This document shows, one piece after another, positions 13,555-42,038 of a stretch of 64,000 bases of DNA (within the stretch, counting starts at the first letter, position 1; every line of letters starts with the position of its first letter). This DNA is from Mycobacterium sp. UM_CSW (lineage in GTDB: Bacteria; Actinomycetota; Actinomycetes; Mycobacteriales; Mycobacteriaceae): positions 1 to 64,000 of the forward strand of contig NZ_AUWQ01000007.1 in the NCBI RefSeq assembly GCF_000455205.1. Direction: 5' to 3'. Both the position numbers and the translations under genes were made by a program. The notes below the pieces were generated by a model. It searched no databases. It worked only from the letters and a program-made list of their open reading frames with translations, and was not told the origin of the DNA.

Positions 13555-14046
13555 TTAGGTCTGTAGTGCGCCGGCCGCCAAGGCGGCCGAGTTGATGCGC
13601 GTCAGCACCTGATGCAGATGCCGAAGTTCGTCCATTCCGACGCCCAGCCGCGCGACGACGGCGGGCGGGATCTTGCATGCTCGCCGGCGCAAGGCGGTAC
13701 CGCTGTCGGTGAGTTTGACGTCGGTGGTGCGCTCATCGACGGCGTTTCGGGTGCGGGTGATCAGGCCGAGCGCCTCCAGGCGCTTGAGCATCGGCGACAG
13801 CGTCGCCGAATCCAACTGCAACGTGGCGGCAATCTCCTTGACCGACAGCGGTTTCTGTTGACCGGCCTTCTGGCGATCCCAGAGCGTCAGCATCACCAGA
13901 TACTGCGGATGCGTCAGCCCCAACGGCTCCAACAGCGGCCGGTAGACCGCTAGGACGGCGCGGTTGGTGATGCTCAGCGCGAAACAGACCTGCTGCTCGA
14001 GGGCGAGGGGGTCGATCTCCGGAGCGGTCGGCGCGGCCATATTCAC
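13555..14046 (-). CDS. MarR-family regulator, OhrR-like redox sensor
   Basis: A 163-residue DNA-binding protein. The N-terminal stretch ALEQQVCFALSITNRA places a cysteine (Cys21) exactly where OhrR proteins carry the peroxide-sensing Cys. The winged helix follows (LSVKEIAATLQLDSATLSPMLKRLEALGLITR, then the wing with DERTTDVKLT). OhrR represses organic peroxide resistance genes and releases DNA when its Cys is oxidised; no ohr gene is adjacent here. A perfect 7-4-7 palindrome just upstream of its start (14059-14076) is a likely autoregulatory operator. The downstream small membrane protein is the probable co-regulated gene. Confidence 0.85.
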   Translation of the reverse strand: MNMAAPTAPEIDPLALEQQVCFALSITNRAVLAVYRPLLEPLGLTHPQYLVMLTLWDRQKAGQQKPLSVKEIAATLQLDSATLSPMLKRLEALGLITRTRNAVDERTTDVKLTDSGTALRRRACKIPPAVVARLGVGMDELRHLHQVLTRINSAALAAGALQT

Positions 14047-14058
14047 ATCGTACGCTAA

Positions 14059-14076
14059 TAGTTAGGACGCTAACTA
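14059..14076. promoter_or_regulatory. Operator-like palindrome upstream of the OhrR/MarR gene
   Basis: TAGTTAG and CTAACTA form a perfect inverted repeat with a 4-base spacer, 12 bases upstream of the start codon of the MarR gene. The heptamer ACGCTAA also occurs as a direct repeat at 14052-14058 and 14067-14073. The position and symmetry suit binding by a MarR dimer. Confidence 0.6.
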
Positions 14077-14144
14077 TGTTGTTCTGGTCACAGAACTGCC
14101 CAGCAGACGCGCAGGCTACTGGCGGGATTGCTATGCGGTCGTCC

Positions 14145-15788
14145 CTAACCCGCCAGCAGTCGAGCGAGGCTGAAGAGACCTCCGAACTGGGTGCCCGTAT
14201 TGAAGAATCCGGATAGTGAGCCGCTGAAGGTCGGGTTGAGAGTGGGGACCCCGGTGTTGCCGATTCCCGACATCGCGCCCCCGTTGATGACGGTGTTGAA
14301 GAAGCCCGAGGCGAACCCGAGGGTGGCCGTGTTGTCGAAGCCCGAGACATTTGTGCCGGAGTTGTTGAAGCCAGACTGGCTGGCCCCGGTGTCGGTGGTG
14401 AAGCCGAAACCGGTGTTGGCCAGACCGGAATTCCACGCGCCCGTGTTGACGCCGCCCGAATTCCCCCAGCCTGTGTTCGTGGCACCCGAATTCCACCACC
14501 CGGTATCAAAACCGCCGCCGTTCCCGAAGCCGGTGTCAAGTCCGCCCGAGTTCCCGAAGCCCGTGTTGACGTTGCTCGAGTTCCCGAAGCCGAAGTTCCA
14601 GTCGCCTGCGTTTCCGAAGCCGATGTTGCCGGCGCCCGCGTTCCCGAAGCCAAAGCTGTTGAGGTGACCGGGCAAATGGGTGTTGGTGCCCGTGGAGAGG
14701 AAGCCGACGTTGCCGTTGCCGGAGTTGAAGAAGCCGATGTTGCCGGACCCGGAGTTCCCGATGCCGATGTTTCCGGCACCCGAGTTCAGCCCGCCGAAGC
14801 TGAACTGGTTGGTCGCGGTGTTGAAATAGGTGTTCCCGATGCCGATTTCGTTGCTGCCGGTGAGCCCGAAGCCGATGTTGTTGTTGCCGCTGTTCCCGCC
14901 GCCGATGTTGTTGTTGCCGGCGTTGCCGCCCCCGATGTTGTTGTTCCCGGCGTTGCCAAGGCCCCGGTTGCCGTCCCCGGCGTTGCCGAAGCCCCAGTTG
15001 TTGCTGCCGGCGTTGCCGAAGCCGACATTGTGGCCGGCGTCGGTGCCCAGGGCCGGGTTGGAGCTGTTGCCGGAACCGATGTTTCCGTCGCCGTGGTTTC
15101 CGAAGCCGATATTCCCGTTGGCCGGGACACCGGCAAAGCCGTTGCCGCCGCCGAGGTTGTTGTTGCCCGTGTTTCCACTGCCGAGGTTGCCGATGCCGGT
15201 GTTGCCGGGGCCCACGTTGGCGTTGCCCTTGTTGCCGATGCCCAGGTTCGGCAGGTTGGCGAGAATGTCCTGCAGCGTCTGCGCGGGCACCAACTGCGCG
15301 GCCGCGGCCGAAACGCCGCCGTGATAGCCGACCATCGCCGCCACGTCTTGGGCCCACATCGCCTCGTAGTCGCCCTCCAGTTCAGCGATCGCCGGCGCGT
15401 TGAGCCCAAACCAGTTCGACATCACCATCTGCACAAGGGAATTGCGGTTGAGCTCAACCATGAGCGGCTGCACCGTCGCGGCCCGGGCCGCCTCGAACGC
15501 GCTAACCACCGCCCGGGCTTGCCCGGCCGCACCGGAAGCCTGCGCCGCCGCGGCGCTCAACCATCCGCTATAGGGTGCCGCCGCGGCCGCCATCGCCGCA
15601 GACGCCGGGCCCTGCCAGGCCTGGCCGGCGAGCCCCGAGGTAACGGCGGAAAATGACGACCCCGCCGATCCCAACTCCGAAGCCAGGCCGTCCCAGGCCG
15701 CCGCCGCCTCAAGCATCGGCGCGGAACCGGCACCACTGAACATCAGCAGAGAATTGATTTCCGGCGGCAACACCGCAAAATTCGCCAT
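14145..15788 (-). CDS. PPE family protein, MPTR subfamily
   Basis: A 547-residue protein beginning [17 protein letters not shown] with Pro-Pro-Glu at residues 8-10 and the WxG motif (AWQG, near residue 58) of the ~180-residue PPE helical domain. The rest is made of NxGxGNxG-type major polymorphic tandem repeats (GNTGIGNLG and variants). The PPE domain normally pairs with a PE or Esx partner for type VII export to the surface; no partner PE gene is adjacent. A GGAGACC site precedes the ATG. The repeats make an open frame on the other strand, which is not a gene. Confidence 0.93.
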
Positions 15789-15938
15789 CCTGGTCTCCTA
15801 CGTTTCCGCCGACCGCCGGTGAGGTGACCCGTCGTCGATCCGGAATCGAGTAACCCTCCCCAAATGCGACGGCCGCCGCGGGGTTGACAATGTCTTCGTT
15901 CCCCCATGCTGGTTGTGCGCCATCGGATCGACGCCCGC

Positions 15939-16022
15939 GTTCGCAGTATGGACGGGCGATGCGCCGCGGCGCATGGGCAAATTTGCCTATTTTGATCGAC
16001 GACCGCCCGCTGCGGTCTCTAC
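15939..16022. repeat. Left arm of ~84-bp inverted repeat around the LuxR-type gene
   Basis: This segment matches the reverse complement of 18655-18738 with about 12 mismatches and no gap, including a 32-bp exact core. It contains a 16-bp perfect palindrome (15959-15974) and the 12-bp palindrome GGCAAATTTGCC. On the + strand it reads as an 18-codon copy of the LuxR gene's N-terminus (MGKFAYFDRRPPAAVSTL, then stop). The 3' end of the LuxR-type gene lies inside it. Confidence 0.85.
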
Positions 16023-18704
16023 CTTGTAGACGGCGGCTGCTTGCGTCCGATTGTTGACGCCGAGTTTGGTCAGGATGGCTTCCACGTGGTGGGCGGCGGT
16101 TCTAGGACTGATGCACAGCTTGGTCGCGATGTTGGCGTCGCTATGGCCGGCGACGAGCAGTGCCAGCACATCACGTTGGCGCCGGGTCAGCTGGTAGGGA
16201 TCGGCCAGGGTGTCGGCGCGCCGCCCGCTGTGAGTGCGCCCACGCAGCTGGGCCAACCGTTGTTGGGCGCGCCGCGTGGCGGCGCGGGCACCGAGCCCGC
16301 GGAAGGTGGTCAGCGCGATCTCCACGGCTTCGATGTCGCCGCTCAGTTGGGCGATGGCAGCGTCGTAGGGACTACCCAGCCGGGTCCACTCCGCGGCGGC
16401 GGCCAGCCAATCGCCACTGACTTCAAAACGGAACGGTGTGACGCTGTCGACCGCCCCGGGCAAGTCTGGCGTGCCGCCGGTTAGGTGGGCCCAGCGGCGC
16501 AGCGAGCCCGCCAGCCATGGATCGGCCATCACACCGGTGGCGCACACCAGCCCCTTGTGCGCCTCGGCGCGCGCGGTGTCGTCATCGCCGGCCAGCCACG
16601 CCGCCTCGGCGCGCGCGGCCCACACCGGCCCAAGACGGAAGAAGTCATCAGGCTCCGTACAGCCGAGCGCCTCGTCGAGCAGCGGCCCGACGGGTCGCTG
16701 CCCGCGGCGCGCCATGATCAACGCAGCAGTGATGACCGCCAGAATTCGATGCACCGGGACGAGCCCGGGCCGGGTCAGCACGTGCTCGGCGAGCGCTGCA
16801 GCACGGTCCCAGTCGCCGCGGTGCAGCTGCACAAGCCCGTCGGCGGCGACGGCCAGGAGCTGGAACATGCCCAAGTCGTGGTCGGCGCAGAACGTAACCG
16901 TGTCGGCGATGTAGCCCTCGGCGCGGCCCAGCTGGTAGTGCAGGGCCGCGAAAACGGACAGGGACGCTCCGATCATCCCAGCGTGCTCGGCAAGTCCTGG
17001 CATTGCGATCGCGTCGCGCCATACTGCCTCCAACTCGTCCCACCCAGTGTCGCTGCGACACACGGTGGCCACCGCCGCCGCCCCGCGGGCCCTGATCACG
17101 ACCGCGCGCTCGCCCAGCTCGCTACCGAGCGCTACGGCTCGGGCCGCATAGTCTGCGCACGCCGGGTCGTAGGTGTGCGCGGCCAACACCGCCGCATTGA
17201 CCAGCGCCCAGGCCAGTTCTTCAGACGGGCCGAGCCCTTCGAGCAGCCGCAGCGCCGCCCGCCCAGCCTCGGCGGCCTCAGTCACGTGGCCCAGCGGCCA
17301 CAGCATGAGTGACAGCCAGCGCAGGTCGTCGCCCTCTTCGAGCCGGTCGCCCATCTCACGGCGTAGCCTGATCGCCGCTCGCCAGGACACCGCCGCCTCC
17401 TCGACCGACCCGCTGAGGTAGCTGGCGAATGCGTGGCCTTCCAGCCACTCGACCGTCTGCTCGCGTGATGCGGTTTCGGCATGGCGCAGCACCAGCGCGT
17501 ACAAATCGGCGGCCTGTCGATTGGCGCCGAGCGCTGAGGCCCGCTCGGCGCCTGCCACGCCATGCCGCACAACTTCCTCGTCATCGCCGGCCTGATCGGC
17601 ATGAAACGCCAACGCCCCCAACGCCTCCGGCGTAATCGGATCTTCGGCCAGCACAGCCAACGCGCGGGCATGCAACAGGCGGCGCTGGTGGTCGGGGATG
17701 TGGTTCAACGTGGCGCGGCGGGCCAACTCATGCCGAAACCCCACCGCTGCGCCGTCAAAGACAAGAACTCCCGCGGCCAAGCATTCGTCCAGCGCCGCGC
17801 CCGGACACACCATGGTAACCACATCCGCATCGATCCACGGACCGCACACCGCGACGGCGTACGCGGTGTCGCGCGCGGCCGGCGTCAACCGCCCCAACCG
17901 GCCCCACACCGCCTCGGACACACTGCGCGGCAACGCATTCCCGTCCAAAGCATCGCGGCCGGCAGCCAAGACTTCGGTGACAAAAAATGCATTCCCACCA
18001 GTGAGCTGGTGCAGCAGCTCGGCGTTCACACCGCTGCCGGCGGCCAGCACCTCAACGGCGCGTCGGCTCAGCGGCCGCACCTCGACGCGGGTGACCGCGA
18101 CACACGTCGCCACATCGCCCAGCGCCACCGCCAACGGGTGGGCGGGCCCGACCTCGTCGTCGCGATACGACACGATCAGCAGCACCGGCAGGCTACCGAT
18201 ACGACGGGCCAAGAACCGCAGCAGATCCAGCGTGGCTCCGTCGGCCCAATGCAAATCCTCGATCACACACACCCAGGGTGGACCCACCCCAAGCAGCCGC
18301 AACAGGGCCGCGTAAATCGCCTCGGGCTCACCGCGATTGATCACCGCTACCAACTCGGCCGCCTGGTCGGCCGGCAGCTGGGCCGCCATGTCGATCAGCG
18401 GCCCCAACGGCCGCGGCACCGACAGCGGATCACACCCGCCCCGCAACACCTGCACCTTCCGGCCCCACTGTTCGACAAACCGGTCGACGACCGCGGTCTT
18501 GCCCACCCCGGCCGGCCCCCGCAACAACACCACCTGACCGGCGCCGCCGGCCACGCGCCGACCCAACCCAGCCAACTCGGCCAGCACCACGTCACGCTCG
18601 AGCAGCGTCCTCACCGGGCTGTTAGCCTTCCGCCTCTTGAGACTGTTCGGTTGAGTCGAGGCCGCGGCGGGCGGCCGTCGACCAAAATAGGCAAATTTGC
18701 CCAT
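15987..18704 (-). CDS. Large LuxR-family regulator with AAA/NACHT-type ATPase
   Basis: A 905-residue protein. An N-terminal ATPase has Walker A GPAGVGKT (residues ~63-70) and Walker B VCVIEDLHWADG; a long helical, TPR-like middle follows (about 370-800); the last ~70 residues are a LuxR helix-turn-helix (LTRRQRDVLALLVAGHSDAN, SPRTAAHHVEAILTKLGV). Such LAL/MalT-like regulators couple ligand and nucleotide binding to transcription activation; ligand and targets are unknown. The ATG at 18702-18704 (MGKFAYFGRRPP) is preferred to an upstream TTG at 18773. No Shine-Dalgarno is visible, so a leaderless transcript is possible. Start and stop codons both lie inside arms of an inverted repeat. Confidence 0.88.
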   Translation of the reverse strand: MGKFAYFGRRPPAAASTQPNSLKRRKANSPVRTLLERDVVLAELAGLGRRVAGGAGQVVLLRGPAGVGKTAVVDRFVEQWGRKVQVLRGGCDPLSVPRPLGPLIDMAAQLPADQAAELVAVINRGEPEAIYAALLRLLGVGPPWVCVIEDLHWADGATLDLLRFLARRIGSLPVLLIVSYRDDEVGPAHPLAVALGDVATCVAVTRVEVRPLSRRAVEVLAAGSGVNAELLHQLTGGNAFFVTEVLAAGRDALDGNALPRSVSEAVWGRLGRLTPAARDTAYAVAVCGPWIDADVVTMVCPGAALDECLAAGVLVFDGAAVGFRHELARRATLNHIPDHQRRLLHARALAVLAEDPITPEALGALAFHADQAGDDEEVVRHGVAGAERASALGANRQAADLYALVLRHAETASREQTVEWLEGHAFASYLSGSVEEAAVSWRAAIRLRREMGDRLEEGDDLRWLSLMLWPLGHVTEAAEAGRAALRLLEGLGPSEELAWALVNAAVLAAHTYDPACADYAARAVALGSELGERAVVIRARGAAAVATVCRSDTGWDELEAVWRDAIAMPGLAEHAGMIGASLSVFAALHYQLGRAEGYIADTVTFCADHDLGMFQLLAVAADGLVQLHRGDWDRAAALAEHVLTRPGLVPVHRILAVITAALIMARRGQRPVGPLLDEALGCTEPDDFFRLGPVWAARAEAAWLAGDDDTARAEAHKGLVCATGVMADPWLAGSLRRWAHLTGGTPDLPGAVDSVTPFRFEVSGDWLAAAAEWTRLGSPYDAAIAQLSGDIEAVEIALTTFRGLGARAATRRAQQRLAQLRGRTHSGRRADTLADPYQLTRRQRDVLALLVAGHSDANIATKLCISPRTAAHHVEAILTKLGVNNRTQAAAVYKVETAAGGRRSK

Positions 18705-28333: not shown

Positions 28334-30106
28334 CTATGGGTTGAGTGGGTCTGTCGTGCCGGTGAAGTCGGCGACGATGGAGGTGGCGGCGTGCTCGATA
28401 ACTCGGAATTCGAACCCGGTCGCCAGCGTCACCAGCGCCGTATCGGCGGCGACGGGAGCGCCCAGCGCGTAGACGAGCCCGCCGACAGGATCACCATCGA
28501 ACGCTTGCTTGACGCCGCTTAAGAAGAGGTTGATGTCGTAGGACGGCATGGAGATCGTAAGCGCATTCGCGATATCGGCCGTCGGAAGCAGAGTCGCGTA
28601 GGCGTCGGAGGCTGCGCCCGAGACCGCGGTGGCCAAATAGCTGTTCGTGCCCTGAAGGGCACCGATAACGCTGTCCGGTGAGGCGAGGACGGACATGACC
28701 CCGGCGAGCGCTCCGGGTCCGCCGGTTACGCCAGCTCCCACTGTGGACGCGAGGCTGGGCAGTGACAAGGTTGAGAACGACGCACCTGCCGAGGCGGCCT
28801 CTGCGCCGATGTCGCTGATGAACGAGTTCAATCCTTGCTGGGTTCCGGTGCCAAGGGCCTGGAGCACGGTGACGGGGCTGACTGGTGGAATGACCCCGAA
28901 TCCGGTTGGGACGTTGGGCGCGTCGGGCGACCAGCCCTGGGTAGTGCTGCCGTAGCCCAAGTCGACGATGACTCTCAAGTCGGGTTGGATTAGGTCGGCG
29001 ACAGGATGTCCTATCACCGGAATTGCCCGCACGGGGTCCAACAGCGGCAGGTTCGCCGTGGGATAGATGTAATAGTCGGTCAGCGTGGGTCCCGCCGTGT
29101 TCGTCAGCTGGACTGCGGTGGTGGGGTCCATGTAGGGATATTGGCCGTGCAACTCGATGATGCCGAAGAAAGCGTTGACATCTGACACGATGTCGAGGGG
29201 GTATCGCGGGAAGTCGGCGAAACCGTCGTACTCGATCGTGAAGATCTTGGTAGGGAACGAATTGTCCGGAGTCGCCAGGCCGAACGTCAAACCCAGACTA
29301 GGCAGGCTCAATCCCGGGAAACGAGTGAGCAAGCCGCCGTTGGGATTGCTCACATCACCGACGAGTGTGAAGTTCAGCGTCACCCCCGGCGGCAGATTGC
29401 TCCCGCCCGGGGTGTTCGTGGGGTTGAGCGCCATCATTTCCTGGGACACGATGTTCGCGCTCTGCGAGTAGCCGAAGACGTTGATCTGGGTGGCCCCGGA
29501 GGCGATTGTCGACTGGATTGCGTTGTTGAGGATTGAGACGCCGCGCGCAGCCGACACGTCGAAGGTCAAATCCTTGATGCCGGTGAGCGGATACAGCCCC
29601 TCGGGCGTGGCGATGCCGACATTGGTGCCGCTCATGCCCGGGTTCCACAATTGGTCGAGATATATCTGCGGAAGCAACGTTACGTATTCCGGGATCTGCC
29701 ACGGTATCGGGTAGCCGCTGGCACCCAAGATCAAGTTGGTGATGCCGGCGGCGGGGGTCGCCGTACCCCCGCCAAGAAGCGACGGGAACGCCGAGGTGAT
29801 CTCGTTCAGCGCGGCCGACACGGCGTTCGCCACCTCTGTCTCGGCGTAGGCAAGTCCGGAACCGCGCAGCAGCTGGACGAATTGACCTTGGAATGACGAC
29901 GCCTGCGCGACTGCTGCGTGATACTGCGCGGCGTACGTGTTGAACACTGTCGCAGTGGCCGCTGACACTTCGTCGCCAGCCGCTGCGATCAGCGAGCTCG
30001 TTGGACGAGCCGCCGCCGAACTGGCCTCTCCGATCACCGAGCGAATCCGCGAAACCTCTGTCGCCGCCGCGGCCATTGCATCCGGTTGTGTGACCAAATA
30101 CGTCAT
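28334..30106 (-). CDS. PE protein with PE-PPE serine hydrolase domain
   Basis: A 590-residue protein. Residues 1-95 are a PE domain (MTYLVTQPDAMAAAATEVSR, then YAAQYHAAVAQASSF), used for type VII export. Residues ~130-370 are a PE-PPE alpha/beta-hydrolase domain with nucleophile Ser214 in FGYSQSANI and the conserved YDGFADFPRYP segment. The C-terminal ~200 residues are Ala/Gly/Ser-rich. Such proteins are surface esterases, lipases or acyltransferases; the substrate is unknown. The start agrees with the PE family, and GATCGATGACG precedes it. About 1 kb of apparently non-coding DNA lies upstream. Confidence 0.92.
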   Translation of the reverse strand: MTYLVTQPDAMAAAATEVSRIRSVIGEASSAAARPTSSLIAAAGDEVSAATATVFNTYAAQYHAAVAQASSFQGQFVQLLRGSGLAYAETEVANAVSAALNEITSAFPSLLGGGTATPAAGITNLILGASGYPIPWQIPEYVTLLPQIYLDQLWNPGMSGTNVGIATPEGLYPLTGIKDLTFDVSAARGVSILNNAIQSTIASGATQINVFGYSQSANIVSQEMMALNPTNTPGGSNLPPGVTLNFTLVGDVSNPNGGLLTRFPGLSLPSLGLTFGLATPDNSFPTKIFTIEYDGFADFPRYPLDIVSDVNAFFGIIELHGQYPYMDPTTAVQLTNTAGPTLTDYYIYPTANLPLLDPVRAIPVIGHPVADLIQPDLRVIVDLGYGSTTQGWSPDAPNVPTGFGVIPPVSPVTVLQALGTGTQQGLNSFISDIGAEAASAGASFSTLSLPSLASTVGAGVTGGPGALAGVMSVLASPDSVIGALQGTNSYLATAVSGAASDAYATLLPTADIANALTISMPSYDINLFLSGVKQAFDGDPVGGLVYALGAPVAADTALVTLATGFEFRVIEHAATSIVADFTGTTDPLNP

Positions 30107-31139: not shown

Positions 31140-31685
31140 TTACCGTTCGTACGTGCCAGTCAGCGTCCCGCGGGCCAGCACGTGTCCAGCCATCGAGACC
31201 AGGAGAGCCTTGGCCGTGGTGACGGTGTCGGGGATGCACTCGTCGGTCGCGAACACATGGAACCGGTAGCGGTGGGGTCCGTGACCGGGAATCGGGCGAG
31301 GCCCCGCGTAGCCCCGGTGACCCAGATCGGCCCGGACAAACCGTATTCCGTCGGTCCCCGGAAGCAATTCGCCGGCGGCGACGCCGCCCAGCGTTGGCTC
31401 GAGCACTGCAACTGTGTGCAGTGGGGGCCGCGGCAGCGGAACGTCGATGTCGTCCATGACGAACACCAGCTGCCGGGCGTCTGGCGGCACCCCCTCCCAG
31501 CGCAGCGGCGGCGAGGCGTTGTCGCCGACGCCGTTGCCCGCACTGGCCGGCGGCATCGGTCCGCCGTCGTCGAACGCCGGGCTGGTGACGGTGATCGACG
31601 CAGGCGCGTCAAAAGCTTTGCCGGCCAACGGACTTCGGTGTGCGCCCGCACGCGCCCCGCGGAGCAGCCGTCCCAGCAGCGCCAT
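31140..31685 (-). CDS. PEBP / YbhB-YbcL family protein
   Basis: A 181-residue phosphatidylethanolamine-binding-like protein. The family signature is visible: ITVTSPAFDDGGPMP, NASPPLRWEGVPPDARQLVFVMDDIDVP, the YAGPRPIPGHGPHRYRFHVFA block that builds the ligand pocket, and a C-terminal GTLTGTYER. Bacterial members (YbhB, YbcL) bind small anions or lipids; biochemical roles are unsettled. Its ATG overlaps the LeuD-like stop by one base (TGATG), making it the last gene of the five-gene operon. Its role there is unknown, perhaps as a small-molecule binding or isomerase-type accessory. Confidence 0.85.
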   Translation of the reverse strand: MALLGRLLRGARAGAHRSPLAGKAFDAPASITVTSPAFDDGGPMPPASAGNGVGDNASPPLRWEGVPPDARQLVFVMDDIDVPLPRPPLHTVAVLEPTLGGVAAGELLPGTDGIRFVRADLGHRGYAGPRPIPGHGPHRYRFHVFATDECIPDTVTTAKALLVSMAGHVLARGTLTGTYER

Positions 31686-32245
31686 CAGGCGCCGCTGCCG
31701 GCGCCGCGCATGGCGACAGTGCTCGACCGCAGGACGTCGCCCAGCTCGGCCGGCAGATAGCCCTGCTCCGCCAACCGTGGTAGCACGCCGCCACTTTCGA
31801 TGATCTCGAGGATCAGCTCGGGCAGCTGGGGGACGGTGCCTGAGTCTCCGGTGGTGTCGTTTCGCCAGGTGCCGGCTGTCAGGTCGAAGGATCCCGTGTC
31901 GCCCTCGCGAAACACTTCGGTGGCGTTGGGCACGGTCATCGCCGGCAGCCCGGCGTTAACGGCGTTGCGGAAGAACAACGAGTTGAATTCTTCGGCGACG
32001 AGACCTGCCACCCCGAGCTCGGTAAACAGGGCCGCGACCGGCCGCGACGACCCGAGCCCGAAGTTCTTGCCCGCCACCACGACGTCGCCCGGCGAAACCT
32101 GGTCGGTCCAGCAGGGGCGCACCTCATGGAAGACGTGCTTGGCCGCCTCGTGCGGATCCATCTTCATGGCGAAGGCCGGATACATGGCGTCGGTGTTGAG
32201 GTTGTCGCCGAACACCCAAAGCTTGCCGCTAAAGGCGATCGTCAT
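31685..32245 (-). CDS. Aconitase-superfamily small subunit (LeuD-like)
   Basis: A 186-residue swivel-domain subunit of a two-subunit hydro-lyase. It begins [25 protein letters not shown], where leucine enzymes have DxIxTDxIIP. The substrate-binding Gly-Ser-Ser-Arg loop is [16 protein letters not shown], with Leu in place of the usual Cys before GSSR, and [21 protein letters not shown] follows. The altered TD loop argues for a substrate other than isopropylmalate. The start overlaps the LeuC-like stop by four bases and the end touches the PEBP gene. An upstream in-frame extension is ignored because it runs inside the LeuC-like gene. Confidence 0.88.
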
Positions 32246-33489
32246 GCGGTCACGCTCCTCGGGTCGGTGATGTATCCGGTGACGGCAGAGGCGGCGACGG
32301 TCGCGGGTGCCGCCATGAAGATCTCCGCCTCGGTGCTGCCCATGCGGCCGGTGAAATTGCGAGTGCTCGACGTGATGCACACCTCGCCGGGGCCCACCAC
32401 GCCCATGTGGTAGCCGAAACACGCGCCGCACGTCGAGTTGGTGATCACCGCGCCGGCGTCCGCCAGGTCCTGCAAGTAACCCAATCGCATCGCTTCGCGG
32501 TACACCGACTGCGAGGCGGGCGTCACCAGCAGGCGCACCCCCGGAGCGACGGTCTTGCCGCGCAACACTTCCGCCGCGATCTCGAGGTCCTCGAGTTGGC
32601 CATTCGCGCACGACCCGATGAACGCCTGGTCAACCTTCTGCCTGTCCAGCTGTGACACGGGCACACCGTTGCGGCTGACGGTGCCCGGGCGCGCGACATA
32701 GGGCTCCAGCACCGAAAGGTCGATACGCCGGACGTCGTGGTAGTTCGCGTCGGGATCCGGTGCCGCAGTGTCGTATCCGGTGACACCGGCCTCGTCGAGG
32801 AAGCGCGCCAGCACCGCGTCGAGTTCGAACGTGCTGAAGTCAGCCGACACCTCGGCGCCCTGGGTGGCGATGGTGCGCCGATCGTGCATCGGGATGCCGG
32901 CCAAACCAGGGCCGCCGAATTCCAGGTTCAGGTTGGGCACATCGCCGTATTCGTTGGCGATGTGAAGGAAGATGTCCTTGCCGCTCACCGTGTTCGGTTT
33001 CATGCCGTCGAGCTCGTAGCGGATCGTCGGCGCAACCTGGAACCACGTCGTACCGGTACACATGATCGAATACACCTCGGCCGGCCCCAGGCCGCGCGCC
33101 GCGGTGTTATAGGCGCCGGCGGCGCACGTGTGAGAGTCGGTGCAGGCCAGGATCTCTCCCGGGCGCGCCAGCCCGTTCTCGGCGATCACCTGATGGCAAA
33201 TGCCGTGCCGACCCACGTCATAAAAGCGCTCGATGCCGAAGTCGGCAACGAACTTTCGGGCGTGCCCGCCGCCGGTGGCGTCCTTGATCGTCGGCGCCGG
33301 CACGGCGTGGTCCATGACGACCGCGAGCTTGTCGGGGTCGTGGATCCGGTTGGGCGGTATCCACAGAGTGGCGAACTGCAGATCGATCAGGACGGTCATG
33401 TCGACGTCGACCACGACGGTGTCACCCGGCGACACCGAGGCCAGGCCGGCCTTGCGGGCGAAGATCTTTTCGATGATGGTCATGCCCAT
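32242..33489 (-). CDS. Aconitase-superfamily large subunit (LeuC/homoaconitase-like)
   Basis: A 415-residue [4Fe-4S] hydro-lyase subunit. The three cluster ligands are Cys294 ([12 protein letters not shown]), Cys354 and Cys357 ([11 protein letters not shown]); the substrate loop [14 protein letters not shown] is intact. The short form (about 415 residues) matches the homoaconitase / dimethylmaleate-hydratase group rather than bacterial LeuC, which is longer. With the LeuD-like subunit it should catalyse reversible hydration of an unsaturated di- or tricarboxylate. Its start overlaps the lyase stop by 10 bases. Genuine leucine synthesis is unlikely in this company. Confidence 0.9.
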
Positions 33490-34367
33490 GAGCGGTCCTC
33501 AGTTTGTGCGTACTTGTCGTCGAGAGCCAGCCACTCCGCCATGCCGATCAGGTTGAAGAAGTCCCCGGGGGTGCTGCCGAGGTGGTTTGCGACGTCGGTG
33601 CCGTTGAGCTCGCAAAGACTCTGCAGCATGCCGAATGTCGCCCGCATCAGGAGATTCCCCGGATGAATGGCGATCGCGTAACCCAACTCCTGCAGCCGAG
33701 ACGCGGACTGCAGCGGCGTCATGCCGCCGAGGACGAGATTGATCAGGAGGGGAGCGTCGACTTCGGCTGCGATGCGAGCGATTTCGCCGGAATCCTGTGG
33801 CGCCTCGACAAAGATGATGTCGGCGCCCGCGTCCGCGTACCGGTTGGCGCGCTCGATCGCGGCGTCCAGGCCGAGCGGGGCACGGGCATCGGTGCGAGCG
33901 ACCACCAGCAGGCCGTCATCGGTGCGGGCGTCGAGCGCGGCTGCAAGCGTCCGCTCGAATACGGCGGCATCGACGACCTGCTTGTCCGGCAGGTGACCGC
34001 ATCGCTTTGGAAACACCTGGTCCTCCAACTGGATCGCTGCCACGCCCGCCGCGTCGTAGGACCGGACTGTGCGCACCACATTCATGGGTCCGCCGTACCC
34101 CGTGTCGGCGTCGGCGATCAGCGGAACGTCGCCCAGCGCATCGGTGATCATCCGTGCCCGGTCGGCCATTTCGGTGGCGGTTACCAGTCCGATGTCCGGG
34201 AGCCCGAATCCCGACGCCGCCACGCCGGCGCCGCTCATGTATGCGGCGACGTGCCCCGTTCGTTTGGTCAGCTGCGCCGAGATGCCGTCGAAAACGCCTG
34301 GCGCAATAATGAGTTCGCGCTTTGCCAGCAGCTCTCTCAGCCGCCGGCGGGCCGGTGTGGTGGCCAT
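33480..34367 (-). CDS. ICL/PEP-mutase superfamily lyase (methylisocitrate / dimethylmalate lyase-like)
   Basis: A 295-residue TIM-barrel enzyme. Metal ligands lie in LIADADTGYGGP (Asp86, Asp88), and the loop P120KRCGH125 carries the catalytic Cys123 that marks C-C lyases and is missing from PEP mutase itself. SGAGVAASGFGLPDIGLVT near residue 45 is also typical of 2-methylisocitrate and 2,3-dimethylmalate lyases. The expected reaction is retro-aldol-like cleavage of a 2-alkyl-hydroxyacid, releasing pyruvate or a homologue. It lies 10 bases after the MmgE/PrpD gene and overlaps the LeuC-like gene. Exact substrate unknown. Confidence 0.88.
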   Translation of the reverse strand: MATTPARRRLRELLAKRELIIAPGVFDGISAQLTKRTGHVAAYMSGAGVAASGFGLPDIGLVTATEMADRARMITDALGDVPLIADADTGYGGPMNVVRTVRSYDAAGVAAIQLEDQVFPKRCGHLPDKQVVDAAVFERTLAAALDARTDDGLLVVARTDARAPLGLDAAIERANRYADAGADIIFVEAPQDSGEIARIAAEVDAPLLINLVLGGMTPLQSASRLQELGYAIAIHPGNLLMRATFGMLQSLCELNGTDVANHLGSTPGDFFNLIGMAEWLALDDKYAQTEDRSWA

Positions 34368-34377
34368 ATCCGCCCTT

Positions 34378-35808
34378 TCAGTCCAGTGCCCCCGCTACGG
34401 GAGCGGCGAGAAGATCGATCAGGTCGCCGATGTCGTCGAGATCGTCGAGATTCAGCACGGCCCGCTCGATCGCGTCCGCCCGTGCGCGGTTCGTGACGCG
34501 GTCGGCGAGCGCATCGAACTTCGTCACGATCTCGTCGTTGGTGACGGAATCATTGGGCGCGCCGTGCGGCAGGGCGACCCGTGCGCGGTGCTCCGCGCCG
34601 TCGCGGGTGGTCACCGCGACGTCGGTGCGGAACTTCTCGGTGATGTCCGCGCGGGCCAACGACTCGTCGAGGTGAACTGTGGTCGCCGCGATCAGCGACC
34701 AGACGTCGTCGGAATCGAGGCGGCCGGGGGTGAATTGCTCGGGCAACACGTTGCCGTCGAGCAGGGCCGCGGCGGTCGCGTACCCGATGTTCATCTGGGC
34801 GCCGATCGGGGTGAGCGGCCGCTCGGGCGTCCACCAACCGTGCTTGTAGATAGTCTCGCCGACCGTGATGTCCACCTTCGAAATATCCTGGGGTGCAACC
34901 GAATTGCGCAGTCGCCTGGCCGCGTCGATCGCTCCGTGCAGGCCGCCCATCGCGGCATACGACTTGACCATGATGTTGGTGGTCTCCCAGCGCTGGCCGA
35001 GTTGTCCGGTCAGCAGCGAGGCATCGGGATCGTGGCCCTCGCCGAAAACGCTGAGGAAGCCGCCGTATTCGCGCTCGAACACCCGCTTGATTCCGGTATA
35101 GCCAGCCGCCGCGAGGCCCGCGGCATAGAAGCCGTTGCGCGCCGCCAGGCCGTGGTGCATGCGCTTGCTCATGGCCTCGTACTGCGCGGCCATCAGCCCC
35201 GCCGATTGGGTGCCGGCCAGGCCGAGGGCGTCCTCGAGTTGCGCGGGCGACAGCCCGCGCAGCTTGCCGGAGGCCATGGCCGCCGGGTGGGTGCCGAAGA
35301 CCGAGCCGGAGTGCCAGCCGCGATCGAGCATCTGGGTGCCGTGCAGCGTGTAGCCGACGCGGGGGCCGACTTCGAAGCCGGCGATCGCCGCCAGCAGCAC
35401 GTCGGCGCCTCTCGTGCCGACCCCGCGCGTCGCCGCCGTCGACAGCAGCGCGGGAATGAGCAGCGAGCAGCTGTGCAGCGGGGCCAGGGGATGGAAGTCA
35501 TCGAGCTCGAAGCCCTGGATGAAGGTGCCGTTGAGGACCGCGGCCGCCGGCGCGCCAGCGGTGCGCCCAGTGCCGATGATGACCGCATCGCCGGCGCCCT
35601 CGAGGCCGAGCACGGCGTCGGTGGCGACGCGAGACCAGGGCAACTGGGCCCCCACCAGCGCGCAACCGAGGCCGTCGAGCAGTAGATGTTTGGCCCGCTC
35701 GACGACGGTCGGGGGAACATCGTCGACGGTGAGGCCGGCGACCCAGGTGGCCAGTCGGCCCGTCGGCCCCGCCGGATCGGTGGCGGGTTGCCGGTGCACC
35801 GCGGTCAT
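34378..35808 (-). CDS. MmgE/PrpD-family dehydratase
   Basis: A 476-residue member of the family that includes 2-methylcitrate dehydratase, itaconate-pathway and cis-aconitate decarboxylase enzymes. Family features are LLLDGLGCALVGAQLPWSR, LNGTFIQGFELDDFHPLAPLHSCSL (the conserved Asp-Asp-x-His metal-free active site), HGLAARNGFYAAGLAAAGYTG, and KSYAAMGGLHGAIDAA. The ATG at 35808 with AAGGAAGG just upstream is chosen over an open upstream extension. It is the first gene of the minus-strand operon and is divergent from a GntR regulator, with a 22-bp palindrome in the 70-base gap. It probably performs the first dehydration of an alkylcitrate- or alkylmalate-type substrate. Confidence 0.88.
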   Translation of the reverse strand: MTAVHRQPATDPAGPTGRLATWVAGLTVDDVPPTVVERAKHLLLDGLGCALVGAQLPWSRVATDAVLGLEGAGDAVIIGTGRTAGAPAAAVLNGTFIQGFELDDFHPLAPLHSCSLLIPALLSTAATRGVGTRGADVLLAAIAGFEVGPRVGYTLHGTQMLDRGWHSGSVFGTHPAAMASGKLRGLSPAQLEDALGLAGTQSAGLMAAQYEAMSKRMHHGLAARNGFYAAGLAAAGYTGIKRVFEREYGGFLSVFGEGHDPDASLLTGQLGQRWETTNIMVKSYAAMGGLHGAIDAARRLRNSVAPQDISKVDITVGETIYKHGWWTPERPLTPIGAQMNIGYATAAALLDGNVLPEQFTPGRLDSDDVWSLIAATTVHLDESLARADITEKFRTDVAVTTRDGAEHRARVALPHGAPNDSVTNDEIVTKFDALADRVTNRARADAIERAVLNLDDLDDIGDLIDLLAAPVAGALD

Positions 35809-35830
35809 CGAGCCTTCCTTCGAGTGAGCA

Positions 35831-35852
35831 GTTGTTATATACATATAACAAC
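35831..35852. promoter_or_regulatory. 22-bp perfect palindrome, likely GntR operator
   Basis: The half-site GTTGTTATAT (35831-35840) and its exact complement (35843-35852) flank a 2-base spacer. The site is AT-rich in a GC-rich genome and lies 22 bases upstream of the MmgE/PrpD start and 26 bases before the GntR start, so one bound dimer could control both directions. Confidence 0.75.
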
Positions 35853-35878
35853 CTACGAGCCGGCGCAAGGGAGGCGGT

Positions 35879-36703
35879 GTGGAAGCATTGACGCCCGTGC
35901 AGCGGAGCGGCGGCAGGACGGGACCGGTGTCCAGTGACGCCGGGGTGCCGTTGCATCGGCAGCTGTTCCTGGTGTTGCACGACGAGATCGATCGCGGCGC
36001 CATCGTCCCGGGCGAGGCGTTGCCCACCGAGCAGACACTGTGCGAGCAGTTCGGGGTTTCCCGGATCACGGTGCGCCGCGCGCTGGCGGATCTGGCCGAG
36101 CAGGGATATATCGAGCGCAGGCACGGCGTCGGTTCGTTCGTCAGGGAGCACAGTCCGTCGGACCTGCCGGCGGGTGGCTCGTACATGGAGGGGTTGCGCC
36201 AGACCCAATTCGAAACCGAGGTCGACGTGGTCGAACTCGAAACCCGGCGCCCGCCCCGCGCCATAGCCGATGCGCTATCGGCGTCCGGCGAGCTGCTGCA
36301 GATCGTGCGAGTGCGCAGGCAACGCCGGACCGGCGAGCCGTTGATGGTCAGCGATGCGTGGCTGCCGTCGGAACTGGCCGGCGCGTTGTCCGAGTCCGCG
36401 CTGCGACGAGCGCCGCTGTATCAGCTGCTGGCGGACGCCGGCATCGTCGTGGACCGCATCCGGCACGAAATCACCGCCGAGATCGCGGGCCCGCGCAACG
36501 CGCATCTACTGGACACGCCGATCGGCGCCGCGCTGCTGCGCGTCAACCGCCTGGCGTTCGTAGGCGATGCGCCGCATCACCATCTGTCGGTTCTGCTGTC
36601 GCCCAGCCGCAGCCGACTGCTGCTCACCCAGACGGCTGACGAATTGGAAACGGGCGACGGCTTGACCATTGCCCACGACGTGCCGCGCCACGCTAACGAA
36701 TGA
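35879..36703 (+). CDS. GntR-family regulator, HutC/FarR subfamily (UTRA domain)
   Basis: A 274-residue regulator. The N-terminal winged helix contains PLHRQLFLVLHDEIDRGAI, the recognition region FGVSRITVRRALADLAEQG, and the wing RRHGVGSFV; a UTRA ligand domain follows (about 105-255, with LLQIVRVRRQRRTGEPLMV and HHHLSVLLSPSRSRLL). HutC-type proteins sense a substrate or intermediate of the pathway they control. It starts at a GTG with AAGGGAGG (35867-35874). It is divergent from the five-gene catabolic operon with an ideal palindrome between them. Its end overlaps the convergent methyltransferase gene by 11 bases. Confidence 0.9.
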   Translation: MEALTPVQRSGGRTGPVSSDAGVPLHRQLFLVLHDEIDRGAIVPGEALPTEQTLCEQFGVSRITVRRALADLAEQGYIERRHGVGSFVREHSPSDLPAGGSYMEGLRQTQFETEVDVVELETRRPPRAIADALSASGELLQIVRVRRQRRTGEPLMVSDAWLPSELAGALSESALRRAPLYQLLADAGIVVDRIRHEITAEIAGPRNAHLLDTPIGAALLRVNRLAFVGDAPHHHLSVLLSPSRSRLLLTQTADELETGDGLTIAHDVPRHANE

Positions 36704-38293: not shown

Positions 38294-38415
38294 AATGGCG
38301 GTGGCCGGCCCATTGACGCTGATCCTTTTTCGGCAATCCCCAATATCGTGATGTCCGCGCGCTAGTCTGCTGCGTGATCGGTGCTCAATCCGGTTGGAAG
38401 GAGGGGGAAAGGCAA

Positions 38416-40635
38416 ATGACGTTGACCGAGCCGAAAATGGCCGAACCGGCGTCTGAAAACCCGCCGGAATCCGCTCCCGAATCCGTATCGCCCGAAAAGC
38501 CGCGGCACGGTCCGCGTCCGCCCTTGGTGTGGCACCGCTTCCGCTTCGGCATCCAGTCCAAGATCCTCATCGCGATGCTCCTCTCGGGCATCCTCGGCGT
38601 GTCGGTGATCGGCCTCATCGGCGCGATATCCGGCCGCAACGCGCTGCGGCAGGTCGAGTCAGAGCGGCTGATCGAGTTGCGGGAGTCGCAGAAGAGGCAG
38701 GTGCAGGCGCTGTTCCGGGAGGTGACGAACTCCCTGATCGTCTACAGCGGCGGATTCAGCATCAACGAGGCCACGCTGTCGCTCACCGCGGGCTTCGAGC
38801 AGTTGGCCAACGCGCCGATCAGCCCGGCCCAGCAGCAGGCGCTGGTCAACTACTACGAGAACCAGATGATTGCGCCGATCAAAAAGGTGACCGGCGACTC
38901 GATCGATCTCAATGCGGTCCTGCCGACTTCCCCGGCGCAGAAGTACGTGCAGGCGTACTACACCGCGCCGCCGAGACCGACCGCCGACTCGCTGCCGGTC
39001 GAGGACGCCGGCGACGGGAGCGCGTGGACGGCGGCCAATGCGCGCTTCGATTTCTACATGCGCGGCATCGTCACCCGCTTCGATTATCGCGACGCCCTGC
39101 TGCTGGACATGCAGGGCAACGTCATCTATTCCGTCCGCAAGGGCCCCGACCTCGGGACGAATATCCTGACCGGTCCCTATCGGGAATCGAATTTGAAGGA
39201 CGCCTACCAGAAGGCGCTGCGTTCCAATGACGTGGATTTCGTCTGGATCACCGACTTTCAGCCGTACCAGCCGGCGCTCGATGCACCCAACGCGTGGGTG
39301 GTCTCACCGGTCGGAATGAACGGCAAGATGGTTGGTGTCATGGCCTTCCCGGTGCCGATCGCGAAGATCAACAACATCATGACCGCGGGCAGACACTGGG
39401 AAGCCGCCGGCATGGGCGCGGCGACCGAGACCTATCTGGCCGGCCCCGACGGTCTGATGCGTTCGGATTCGCGCGAATTCCTGCAGGACCCCGAGCAATA
39501 CAAGCGGGACGCGATCGCCGCCGGTACCGCACCCGAAGTCGTGGAAAAGGCGATCCGGTTGGGCGGCACGACGTTGGTGCAACCGGTCACTACCGCGGGT
39601 TTTCGCGCTGCGCAGCGCGGGGAGTCGGGCACCATGAGCGCCACCGATTACTTGGGCAATAAGGAATTGGAAGCGTATGCGCCACTGGATATTCCCGATT
39701 CCAACCTGCACTGGTCGATCCTGGCCACTCGCGACGACTCGGACGCTTTCGCGCGGCTGGGCAGGTTCAGCAAGACGCTCGTTATCGCGGTGACCACGCT
39801 GGTGTTCGTCATAAGCGTGGCCTCGATGCTCATCGCCGGGGCGGCGATGCGGCCGGTTCGGCGCCTGGAGGAGGGCACCCGAAAGATCAGCTCCGGCGAC
39901 TACGACGTCAACATTCCGGTGATGACCCGCGACGAAATCGGCGACCTCACGGCGGCTTTCAACGAGATGAGCCGGAACCTTGCAATCAAGGAGGAGCTGC
40001 TCAACGAGCAGCGCAACGAAAACAATCGCCTGCTGCTGGCGCTGATGCCGGAGTCGCTCGTCCAGCGGTATCGCGAGGGTGAGGCGACCATCGCGCAGAA
40101 GCACCAGGACGTCGCGATCATCTTCGCGGACATCGCCGGGCTGGACGAGCTTTCCAACGATCTTTCCGGCGACGAACTGGTGGGGATCGTCGACGAGCTG
40201 TTCCGGCAGTTCGATTCGGCCGCGGAAACCCTTGGCGTCGAACGGATCCGCACCTTCCACAACGGGTACCTCGCCACCTGCGGGGTGATTACGCCACGAT
40301 TGGACAGCATTCACCGAACCGTTGACTTCGCCGTCGAGATGCGCCGCATCATCGAACGGTTCAACAGCCAGACCGGCCACGACTTGGGCCTTCGGGTCGG
40401 CATCAACACTGGAAACGTCATCAGCGGGCTGGTCGGCCGATCGAGCCTCGTCTACGACATGTGGGGCGCCGCGGTGAGCCTGGCCTCCCAGATGCACAGG
40501 GGCGCACCGCAGCCCGGCATCTACGTCAGCACCCCGGTGTACGAGGCCATGCGCGACGTGCGGCACTTCACGCCCGCGGGCACGATCTCGGTGGGCGGCA
40601 CCGAGCAGGCGATGTACCGGTTGTCGGAACGATGA
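38416..40635 (+). CDS. Membrane class III nucleotidyl cyclase homologue with degenerate catalytic site (Rv2435c-type)
   Basis: A 739-residue protein. A cytoplasmic N-tail is followed by a TM helix (about 48-72), a large extracytoplasmic sensor domain (about 75-450), a second TM, HAMP (MRPVRRLEEGTRKISSGDYDVNIPVMTRDEIGD region), and a C-terminal cyclase domain from about 555. Asp572 (IIFADIAG, first metal) and Asp681 (YDMWG) remain. The second metal Asp is Asn616 (TFHNGYLA), and the transition-state Asn and Arg are Ser688 and Gln692 (AVSLASQMH). Normal cAMP synthesis is therefore unlikely. Start chosen at 38416 after GGGGGAAAGG. It overlaps the following channel gene by four bases. Confidence 0.9.
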   Translation: MTLTEPKMAEPASENPPESAPESVSPEKPRHGPRPPLVWHRFRFGIQSKILIAMLLSGILGVSVIGLIGAISGRNALRQVESERLIELRESQKRQVQALFREVTNSLIVYSGGFSINEATLSLTAGFEQLANAPISPAQQQALVNYYENQMIAPIKKVTGDSIDLNAVLPTSPAQKYVQAYYTAPPRPTADSLPVEDAGDGSAWTAANARFDFYMRGIVTRFDYRDALLLDMQGNVIYSVRKGPDLGTNILTGPYRESNLKDAYQKALRSNDVDFVWITDFQPYQPALDAPNAWVVSPVGMNGKMVGVMAFPVPIAKINNIMTAGRHWEAAGMGAATETYLAGPDGLMRSDSREFLQDPEQYKRDAIAAGTAPEVVEKAIRLGGTTLVQPVTTAGFRAAQRGESGTMSATDYLGNKELEAYAPLDIPDSNLHWSILATRDDSDAFARLGRFSKTLVIAVTTLVFVISVASMLIAGAAMRPVRRLEEGTRKISSGDYDVNIPVMTRDEIGDLTAAFNEMSRNLAIKEELLNEQRNENNRLLLALMPESLVQRYREGEATIAQKHQDVAIIFADIAGLDELSNDLSGDELVGIVDELFRQFDSAAETLGVERIRTFHNGYLATCGVITPRLDSIHRTVDFAVEMRRIIERFNSQTGHDLGLRVGINTGNVISGLVGRSSLVYDMWGAAVSLASQMHRGAPQPGIYVSTPVYEAMRDVRHFTPAGTISVGGTEQAMYRLSER

Positions 40636-42038
40636 TGAACGCCTGGAACTCCTCGTGGTTCTACTGGGCGATCGGCATCGCGATCGGGTTCCCGGTCGGG
40701 CTGATTTTCCTTACCGAGCTGCACCACGCGCTGGTCCGCCGGAACAGCCGCGTTGCGAGGCAGGTTGGCCTGCTGCGCAATTACCTGTTCCCCCTCGTTG
40801 CGCTCTTGCTGCTGCTCGTCAAGGCGTCGCAGATTCCCGCCGGGGAGGTGCCGGTGCGGCTCCTCACCACGGTTTTCGGCTTCCTGGTGCTGGTGCTGAT
40901 GCTGTCCGGGCTCAACGCCACCGTTTTCGAAGGCGCGCCCGAAGACAGCTGGCGGGCGCGGATGCCCGCCATCTTCCTCGACGTCGCGCGTTTCGCGATG
41001 ATCGGCGTCGGGCTGGTTCTGATCCTGTCGTATATCTGGGGCGTCCGGGTCGGCGGCCTGTTCACCGCGCTGGGTGTCACATCGGTCGTCATCGGCCTGA
41101 TGCTGCAGAACTCCGTCGGCCAGATCGTGTCGGGCTTGTTCATGCTCTTCGAGCAGCCGTTCCGGATCAACGATTGGCTGGACACCGGCACCGCGAAGGG
41201 ACGTGTCGTCGAGGTGAACTGGCGGGCCGTCCACATCGACACCGGCAGCGGAATGCGCGTCACGCCCAACTCGGTGCTGGCCACCACGGCGTTCACCAAC
41301 CTCAGCCGGCCGGCGGGCACCCACAAGCTGGCCATGACGACCACGTTTTCCCCCGCCGACCCGCCCGACCGGGTGTGCGCCATGCTGACGCGCGTGGCCC
41401 TTGGGCTGCCACAGCTGAAGGCCGACACGGTGCCCCGCTCGGTACCCGTCGGCGGCGGCGAATACCGCACCTCCATCGGGCTGACCTCGCCCGCGGACGA
41501 CGGCGCCGCGAAAGCGACCTTCCTGCGCTGGGTCTGGTACGCCGCACGGCGCGAAGACCTGCACCTGGACAACAGCGACGACGACTACTCGACCCCCGAA
41601 CGCGTGGAGAAGGCGCTGCGCACGGTGGTGGCGCCGGCGTTGCGGCTGAACGCCGACGAACAACGCTCGCTGCATTCGTGCGCGAAACTCGTCCGCTACG
41701 GTGCGGACGAAACCGTGGAATACGCCGGTCAGATTCCGGGCGGGATGACGTTTTTGGTCGAGGGCCGCGTGCAGCTGACCGCGATGGCCGACGACGGGTC
41801 GATCGTCCCGATCAGCACCCTGCTCGAGGGCTCGTTCCTCGGGCTGACCGCGCTGACCCGGCAGCCGAACATGGCGAGCGCGTATGCGCTCGACGAGGTG
41901 ACCGCGCTGGAGATCGACCGCGAACACATCGAGCACCTGGTGATGCGTGAACCGTTGCTGCTACAGAACTTCGGCCACATCCTCGAAGAGCGGCAAAGCA
42001 AAGTGCGGCAGGCGCGGCGCGGCGAGCGGGTCGCGTGA
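40632..42038 (+). CDS. MscS-type channel with C-terminal cyclic-nucleotide-binding-like domain (Rv2434c-type)
   Basis: A 468-residue protein. It has about four to five TM helices, an MscS pore and beta-domain (GVTSVVIGLMLQNSVGQIVSGLFMLFEQPFRINDWL, then VVEVNWRAVHIDTGSGMRVTPNSVL), and from about 335 a CRP-type beta-roll (CAKLVRYGADETVEYAGQIPGGMTFLVEGRVQL). In the phosphate-binding cassette (about 402-416) the usual Glu is Leu405, and no Arg sits at the phosphate-binding position (Asn413-Met414), so cNMP binding is doubtful. It starts by ATGA overlap with the degenerate cyclase, implying one functional unit in the inner membrane. The long upstream open frame is ignored as it lies in the cyclase gene. 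Confidence 0.9.
   Translation: MMNAWNSSWFYWAIGIAIGFPVGLIFLTELHHALVRRNSRVARQVGLLRNYLFPLVALLLLLVKASQIPAGEVPVRLLTTVFGFLVLVLMLSGLNATVFEGAPEDSWRARMPAIFLDVARFAMIGVGLVLILSYIWGVRVGGLFTALGVTSVVIGLMLQNSVGQIVSGLFMLFEQPFRINDWLDTGTAKGRVVEVNWRAVHIDTGSGMRVTPNSVLATTAFTNLSRPAGTHKLAMTTTFSPADPPDRVCAMLTRVALGLPQLKADTVPRSVPVGGGEYRTSIGLTSPADDGAAKATFLRWVWYAARREDLHLDNSDDDYSTPERVEKALRTVVAPALRLNADEQRSLHSCAKLVRYGADETVEYAGQIPGGMTFLVEGRVQLTAMADDGSIVPISTLLEGSFLGLTALTRQPNMASAYALDEVTALEIDREHIEHLVMREPLLLQNFGHILEERQSKVRQARRGERVA

Follow-up and report, generated by a model that had tools for sequence, protein, structure and literature searches.

Organisation of the locus

The stretch of Mycobacterium sp. UM_CSW analysed here (contig NZ_AUWQ01000007.1, positions 1 to 64,000; 64,000 nucleotides, hereafter the window) carries five minus-strand genes, spanning 31140-35808 and transcribed in the order MmgE/PrpD-family protein, lyase, LeuC-like subunit, LeuD-like subunit and phosphatidylethanolamine-binding protein (PEBP), with a gntR gene diverging from them. 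This arrangement is suggestive of an operon for the coenzyme A (CoA)-independent breakdown of an alkylated maleate-, itaconate- or aconitate-type acid, that is, a mono- or dialkylated 1,4-dicarboxylate, a reading to which we assign a probability of about 0.5. The genes are tightly packed, with a 10-base gap between the MmgE and lyase genes and overlaps of 10 bases (lyase/LeuC), 4 bases (LeuC/LeuD) and 1 base (LeuD/PEBP). In a Pfam scan, the families of all operon products and of the GntR protein exceed their cut-offs, bearing out the layout described in an earlier interpretation made from the letters alone (the sequence-only reading).

The first gene (34378-35808), with an ATG start after AAGGAAGG, encodes the MmgE/PrpD-family protein (PF03972, 215.4 bits; PF19305, 124.1 bits), and is followed by the gene for a 295-amino-acid C-C lyase of the ICL/PEP-mutase superfamily (33480-34367; PF13714, 155.6 bits) that carries the motif PKRCGH. 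The LeuC-like protein is a short large subunit of 415 amino acids (32242-33489; NF001614, 431.2 bits, cut-off 385) with iron-sulphur cysteines C294, C354 and C357, and its 186-amino-acid partner (31685-32245) belongs to the LeuD/DmdB small-subunit family (NCBIfam TIGR02087, 134.4 bits, cut-off 108.95). The last gene (31140-31685) specifies a 181-amino-acid protein of the PEBP (YbhB/RKIP) superfamily (PF01161, 81 bits, cut-off 24).

Conservation and regulation

The LeuC alignment was scanned against 84,980 species genomes, yielding 131 relatives, of which the best 80 loci were retained; the sample was picked via the LeuC-like protein alone, and 15 of the 80 were set aside for short flanks, leaving 65. 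Among the best 80 of the 131, 40 loci are from Mycobacterium and the rest from Nocardia, Streptomyces, Streptacidiphilus, Amycolatopsis, Catenulispora, Kutzneria and other genera, with LeuD present in 79, the lyase in 78, MmgE in 61, PEBP in 40 and GntR in 33. The well-flanked loci carry LeuD in 65/65 cases, the lyase in 63/65, MmgE in 55/65, PEBP in 33/65 and GntR in 30/65. Spacing is at most 100 bases for MmgE-lyase in 55 of 61 loci, lyase-LeuC in 74 of 78, LeuC-LeuD in 78 of 79 and LeuD-PEBP in 37 of 40. Because the set recurs in many actinobacterial genera, the five-gene association exceeds chance, and the co-occurrence across actinobacteria that had been set beforehand as a check is borne out.

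The distribution of the operon is sporadic. For instance, 18 of the 301 family genomes gave a LeuC match at 1e-60 (identity reached 70% or more in 8, in one of these over a partial protein), 57 of the 396 genus genomes matched the MmgE profile at 1e-150, and in a phylum sample, with four candidates scored per genome, 3 of 396 genomes were positive, all from the window's genus. Carriage by phage was rejected, as the viral scan gave no relative, and so was plasmid cargo, with just 3 of 28 plasmid records (1e-60) above 60% identity. On a mobilizable plasmid of Ancylobacter pratisalsi, a lyase-LeuC-LeuD trio lies between transposase genes, its LeuC being 53% identical.

The divergent gene (35879-36703, plus strand) encodes a GntR-family regulator with a UTRA domain (HutC type; PF00392, 69.4 bits; PF07702, 66.1 bits), whose position is part of the conserved gene order. 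Between it and the operon lies the strand-less palindrome GTTGTTATATACATATAACAAC (35831-35852), the presumed operator of the GntR protein on the strength of its conservation: a 22-base palindrome, GTTGTTAT-N6-ATAACAAC, occupies this place in 31 of 32 GntR-type loci, the exception being L062. Counting exact matches only, the palindrome occurs exactly once in each of 12 operon-bearing genomes and the pattern read backwards not at all in the same 12, and it was absent from 100 shuffles of the window. A single palindrome per genome, kept beside gntR, argues that the GntR protein is a dedicated local regulator with one strong target in this lineage. In other lineages, IclR, Lrp/AsnC or FCD-type GntR genes occupy the regulator position. 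A sigma-70 promoter scan returned no promoter in the operon region.

Two separable modules

Within the operon, the lyase and LeuCD form one module and MmgE and PEBP another. MmgE and PEBP are both present in 24 of the 29 well-flanked GntR-type loci and both absent from the other 5, which all keep the lyase, LeuC, LeuD and the palindrome; the MmgE step is therefore not obligatory. Seven MmgE-less mycobacterial genomes have no MmgE match anywhere at 1e-30, the positive control (G301) being matched, and the GntR-type loci lacking MmgE and PEBP fall at two places in the tree, a clade of four and L047. The LeuD-like gene of L047 (Mycobacterium sherrisii, 11245-11803) gives matches in two reading frames that overlap, a sign of a possible frameshift or decay.

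The converse arrangement is seen from the MmgE side of the genus, where 58 loci were collected and 7 excluded for short flanks. Of the remaining 51, 44 have the core and PEBP, and 3 have PEBP without the full core (L207, L280 and L182, in the last of which MmgE and PEBP are intact and LeuD survives as a remnant); the genomes of these three loci (G052, G1093 and G1211) contain no LeuC-like match at 1e-40. Fisher tests of the MmgE-PEBP association give p values of 8.4e-6 for the GntR-type loci and 3.6e-4 for all 65 loci, values that ignore relatedness. A tree-aware test yields 7 independent pairs, in which PEBP differs in 2.7 on average, always in the same direction; its median p is given below, and statistical proof of the link was rejected.

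The lyase and the LeuC/LeuD-like pair

In the case of the lyase, PK(R/K)CGH is kept in all 78 alignment rows, the window's included. The protein reaches 258.9 bits on the prpB model, below the cut-off of 354.4, and lacks the NxTEFG motif of methylisocitrate lyase (PrpB). Three methylisocitrate lyase references carry NxTEFG, the dimethylmalate lyase NMVEHG, the petal death protein NMIEGG and the window lyase NLVLGG, and over all rows the position of the threonine holds Val in 77 of 78 and Ala in one, never Thr. The best solved relative by score is the petal death protein. The lyase tree places the operon proteins together with the Aspergillus 2,3-dimethylmalate lyase (3fa3) and the petal death protein (1zlp), at a split supported at 94/90, and the methylisocitrate lyases form a separate clade (95/91). 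The weight of this placement is moderate because both key references are long branches. Tree and non-threonine motif together place the lyase, with moderate confidence, in the 2,3-dimethylmalate lyase/petal death protein group, lending support to the earlier guess of dimethylmalate-type chemistry.

Two other activities were rejected for the lyase. Serine at the position of Pro236 marks hydrolases and is found in the petal death protein, whereas all 78 lyase rows keep Pro236, which argues against an oxaloacetate hydrolase; phosphonate chemistry of the CPEP mutase kind is contradicted by a score of 209.7 bits against a cut-off of 420.05.

The three iron-sulphur cysteines of the LeuC-like protein are kept in 81 of 81 alignment rows, including the window's. 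It falls short of the equivalog models TIGR00170 (leuC; 162.5 bits, cut-off 560.25) and LEU2 (358.1 bits, cut-off 610.65) and also of HacA, and the LeuD-like protein scores 108.1 bits on the leud model (cut-off 245.85). The nearest solved relative of the LeuC-like protein, and one of those of the LeuD-like protein, is isopropylmalate/citramalate isomerase. A separate LeuC on contig C144 of the same genome passes the leuC model (721.9 bits), and an AcnA-type aconitase lies on contig C23. A role in the leucine pathway is thus rejected; the possibility that the pair is the only leucine isomerase, raised earlier as a potential refutation, fails on the C144 gene.

The LeuD-like loop reads FAMK where alignments place YLRT or YLVY in solved relatives, with Met in place of the homoaconitase loop Arg and AM(K/R) in 75 of 78 rows. 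GSSR is kept in 78 of 78 rows, preceded by Leu, Val or Ile. These features, namely the eleven-residue loop stretch and the Leu before GSSR, are as the sequence-only reading described them, together with PKRCGH and the LeuC cysteines. The loop Arg and the Thr of NxTEFG are residues that we take to be those expected for a third carboxylate, and both enzymes are consequently without the residue expected for one.

The MmgE and PEBP proteins

The MmgE protein is not PrpD, scoring 16.1 bits on the NCBIfam PrpD equivalog (cut-off 950) and 14 bits on PRK09425 (cut-off 575). Its nearest solved relatives are 'IRG1', IDS epimerase and cis-aconitate decarboxylase. For the last of these, the active-site residues are given as D93, H103, H159, K207, K272 and Y318 (PMC12259180); aligned to this site, E102, H113, H167, K216 and K283 (P0006 numbering) are invariant in 61 of 61 rows, with Glu replacing Asp, and Y322 is present in 56 of 61, its equivalence to Y318 being alignment-dependent. 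The second catalytic base of MmgE/PrpD epimerases and isomerases (those acting on IDS and methylsuccinate), a Tyr 4 to 6 residues before the active-site His, is present in the IDS epimerase row and missing from all 61 rows, the exact column being inferred. Characterised members of the family act on free 1,4-dicarboxylates, and the Bacillus 'IRG1' is described as clustering with no true decarboxylase and as being of unknown function (PMC12290011). The earlier label of 'dehydratase' finds no firm support, given the PrpD score, the residues shared with the decarboxylase active site and the 5 of 29 GntR-type loci that lack the gene. Two loci, L079 and L208, have an additional, only distantly related MmgE/PrpD gene between MmgE and the lyase (31% identical in L208).

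The PEBP protein has the Pfam PBP domain and the His/Asp/Arg set of its superfamily (D79, D81, H90, R130 and H138, each kept in 39 or 40 of 40 rows), and falls outside the YbhB/YbcL subfamily model (TIGR00481, 46.6 bits, cut-off 57.75). PEBP/YbhB proteins have been argued to be enzymes, their genes being described as rarely in conserved operons, with the dialkylmaleic anhydride module of tautomycin and tautomycetin as an operon case (PMC8793217). In fungal maleidride clusters, PEBP genes lie beside a PrpD-family alkylcitrate dehydratase, and their products raise dimer yield and are thought to guard the unstable anhydride acids (PMC4982102, PMC9890510). Both published gene-cluster contexts that were found are thus maleic-anhydride pathways. 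That MmgE/PrpD and PEBP meet again in the operon, a third gene set unrelated to those two and equipped with an alkylmalate-type lyase, points to a molecule of that class here too. The PEBP partner noted earlier is indeed in the operon, although these contexts make it less unexpected than was claimed.

Outside Mycobacteriaceae and Nocardiaceae, MmgE occurs without PEBP in most loci. In L066 and 11 further loci, a gene of metallo-beta-lactamase fold (by Pfam on L066) mostly lies just downstream of LeuD, the position of PEBP in mycobacteria.

A proposed pathway

From the genes, their order and conservation, the palindrome, the families, the active-site residues and the two modules, we infer the reactions, the substrate class, the PEBP role and the sign of regulation as follows. 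MmgE, with PEBP, would prepare the substrate by one acid-base reaction on the free acid (a dehydration, decarboxylation or double-bond shift), creating a cis, maleate-type double bond, and PEBP may take charge of the maleate, which is prone to cyclise to an anhydride, through hydrolysis or protection. Hydration by the LeuCD-like iron-sulphur enzyme would then give an alkylmalate, which the PKRCGH lyase would cut at the C2-C3 bond; the products would be a saturated carboxylic acid and a 2-oxoacid, the latter being pyruvate when C2 carries a methyl group. A single operator is predicted to let the GntR protein repress both the operon and gntR itself. Of the dehydrate, rehydrate and cleave logic proposed earlier, hydration followed by C-C cleavage fits the families, but the initial dehydration by MmgE is only one candidate reaction; that proposal also lacked the palindrome, the separable modules, the PrpF and transporter genes of sister loci and the maleic-anhydride pathways in which PEBP genes have been reported.

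The logic of such a pathway is already known, but the gene set with MmgE, PEBP and this GntR switch was not found described in the open-licence literature searched, nor was the operon itself. The presence of PEBP in a conserved operon, among four enzyme families that are well understood, narrows the substrate to alkylated C4-dicarboxylates and makes simple assays possible. It ties a long-mysterious protein family, which is related to the plant flowering signal, to a testable chemical job. If correct, the proposal would give actinobacteria a CoA-free route for using alkylated maleates or itaconates, which are made by fungi among others. A doubtful extension of this proposal is that PEBP itself catalyses a reaction, hydrolysing dialkylmaleic anhydrides or opening their ring as an isomerase, with the product or substrate of MmgE as its target; a member of the PEBP/RKIP/florigen superfamily would then have a catalytic role in CoA-free alkylmaleate catabolism, and maleidride and tautomycin biosynthesis would run the same chemistry backwards.

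Comparison with known systems

The nicotinate fermentation of Eubacterium barkeri includes a branch with methylitaconate isomerase (PrpF family), 2,3-dimethylmaleate hydratase (DmdAB) and 2,3-dimethylmalate lyase, whose defining reaction splits 2,3-dimethylmalate into pyruvate and propionate. The operon resembles this branch in that a LeuCD-type hydratase, with a small subunit of the family named LeuD/DmdB by NCBIfam, adjoins an ICL-superfamily lyase of the dimethylmalate side, and in sister loci PrpF joins the lyase and LeuCD, matching the order of isomerase, hydratase and lyase. In contrast to E. barkeri, MmgE/PrpD and PEBP here replace PrpF, the hosts are aerobic actinobacteria with their own GntR switch, and no nicotinate genes were seen in the mapped loci. 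PrpF-family genes sit with the lyase and LeuCD in L116 (a Streptomyces cattleyicolor plasmid, in the order LeuC-LeuD-MmgE-PrpF-lyase), L210 and L211, and more loosely in L114 and L118. Importer genes in sister loci include NMT1-type ABC (L111, L210; related genes in L090, L112 and L114), MFS (L069, L087; related genes in L066, L094 and L095), SBF (L065) and a TTT binding protein (L117).

The fungal maleidride/alkylcitrate clusters likewise bring together PrpD-family and PEBP proteins, with maleic anhydrides as monomers, but are biosynthetic and have a polyketide synthase and alkylcitrate synthase where the operon has a hydratase and a cleaving lyase (PMC4982102, PMC9890510). The tautomycin/tautomycetin module (ttmL/ttnL) is also biosynthetic, unlike the operon, and shares with it a bacterial PEBP gene in an actinobacterial gene set, there for dialkylmaleic anhydrides (PMC8793217). 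In the (S)-(R)-methylsuccinate isomerase/itaconate cluster of Pseudomonas and Cupriavidus, an MmgE/PrpD protein acts on a free C5 dicarboxylate beside a pyruvate-yielding cleavage pathway; that pathway is described as CoA-dependent (PMC12290011), and the operon's MmgE is without the Tyr noted above.

Alternative explanations

Several observations weigh against alkylmaleate breakdown. The lyase is 42-45% identical to three methylisocitrate lyases, as against 39% to the dimethylmalate lyase and 37% to the petal death protein; prpB is its best NCBIfam model, albeit below cut-off; and the long branches of 3fa3 and 1zlp temper the tree. The tree-aware test of the MmgE-PEBP link over all loci is not significant (median p 0.25), and PEBP, missing from 22 of 55 well-flanked loci with MmgE, is therefore not essential; among the 51 MmgE loci of the genus, 2 keep the core but lack PEBP and 2 lack both. 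A class-wide PEBP search found 45 places, and 8 of the 9 regions examined have no other operon gene, with MmgE in L182 alone, so a wider PEBP link was rejected. In the PrpF-bearing sister loci, MmgE is more distant and the LeuC of L210 and L211 is of canonical leuC type, and the operon's neighbours in the window include no gene identified as a transporter.

The lyase identities and the prpB score of 258.9 bits favour a tricarboxylate route, that is, a variant second half of the methylcitrate cycle or an alkylcitrate pathway, in which MmgE would dehydrate an alkylcitrate, LeuCD would rehydrate the alkyl-cis-aconitate and the lyase would give a 2-oxoacid and succinate. The superfamilies match PrpD, aconitase and PrpB in the chemical order of dehydration, rehydration and cleavage, and PrpF in sister loci is also compatible with aconitate chemistry (PMC5690661). 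Unlike the methylcitrate cycle, however, the operon falls below both the PrpD model (16 bits, cut-off 950) and the prpB model, LeuCD replaces aconitase, the NxTEFG Thr is missing in 78 of 78 rows and the LeuD loop lacks the homoaconitase Arg; no citrate synthase gene lies at the locus, both of those found being on another contig (C32). We consider this route unlikely. A CoA-free itaconate/citraconate route would be the smallest case of the same chemistry, citraconate passing through citramalate to pyruvate and acetate by way of the lyase, with MmgE bringing in itaconate or cis-aconitate. It would leave PEBP without a role, and half of the best 80 of 131 loci lie outside Mycobacterium, many in soil organisms; these points make it distinctly unlikely, despite the isopropylmalate/citramalate isomerase relatives of LeuC and LeuD, the 'IRG1'/cis-aconitate decarboxylase and IDS epimerase relatives of MmgE (of which the Bacillus 'IRG1' is reported not to group with true decarboxylases, its function unknown; PMC12290011) and the itaconate that mycobacteria meet in macrophages (PMC6689899). 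Involvement in making or recycling a natural product, or a relaxed set of paralogues with PEBP as a passenger gene, appears quite improbable, as the operon in its common form is free of polyketide, peptide and ligase genes, has a dedicated regulator and is joined by importers in sister loci. It would account for the absence of PEBP from about half of the well-flanked loci, for distant PEBP relatives without a link to other genes, and for L107, where LeuCD lies amid YcaO, nitroreductase, TauD and AMP-ligase genes.

Other observations

The L107 region (Streptomyces sp. AC550_RSS872, 4807-16559), which also has an MFS-like gene around the LeuC and LeuD of this subfamily, has surroundings as in a ribosomal-peptide-like natural product cluster. 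The lyase and LeuCD of L110 (Rhodococcus sp. HM1, 7032-14166) have as neighbours genes for a luciferase-type monooxygenase, an SDR and an isochorismatase-fold protein, as well as a frame judged by eye to be RibB-like; together they may serve to degrade a heterocycle. Downstream of the operon in the window, 28334-30106 encodes a PE family protein with a PE-PPE domain. A likely cyclase-gated channel pair lies at 38374-42038, where a HAMP-adenylate/guanylate cyclase gene overlaps the beginning of a gene for a mechanosensitive channel that has a cyclic-nucleotide-binding domain.

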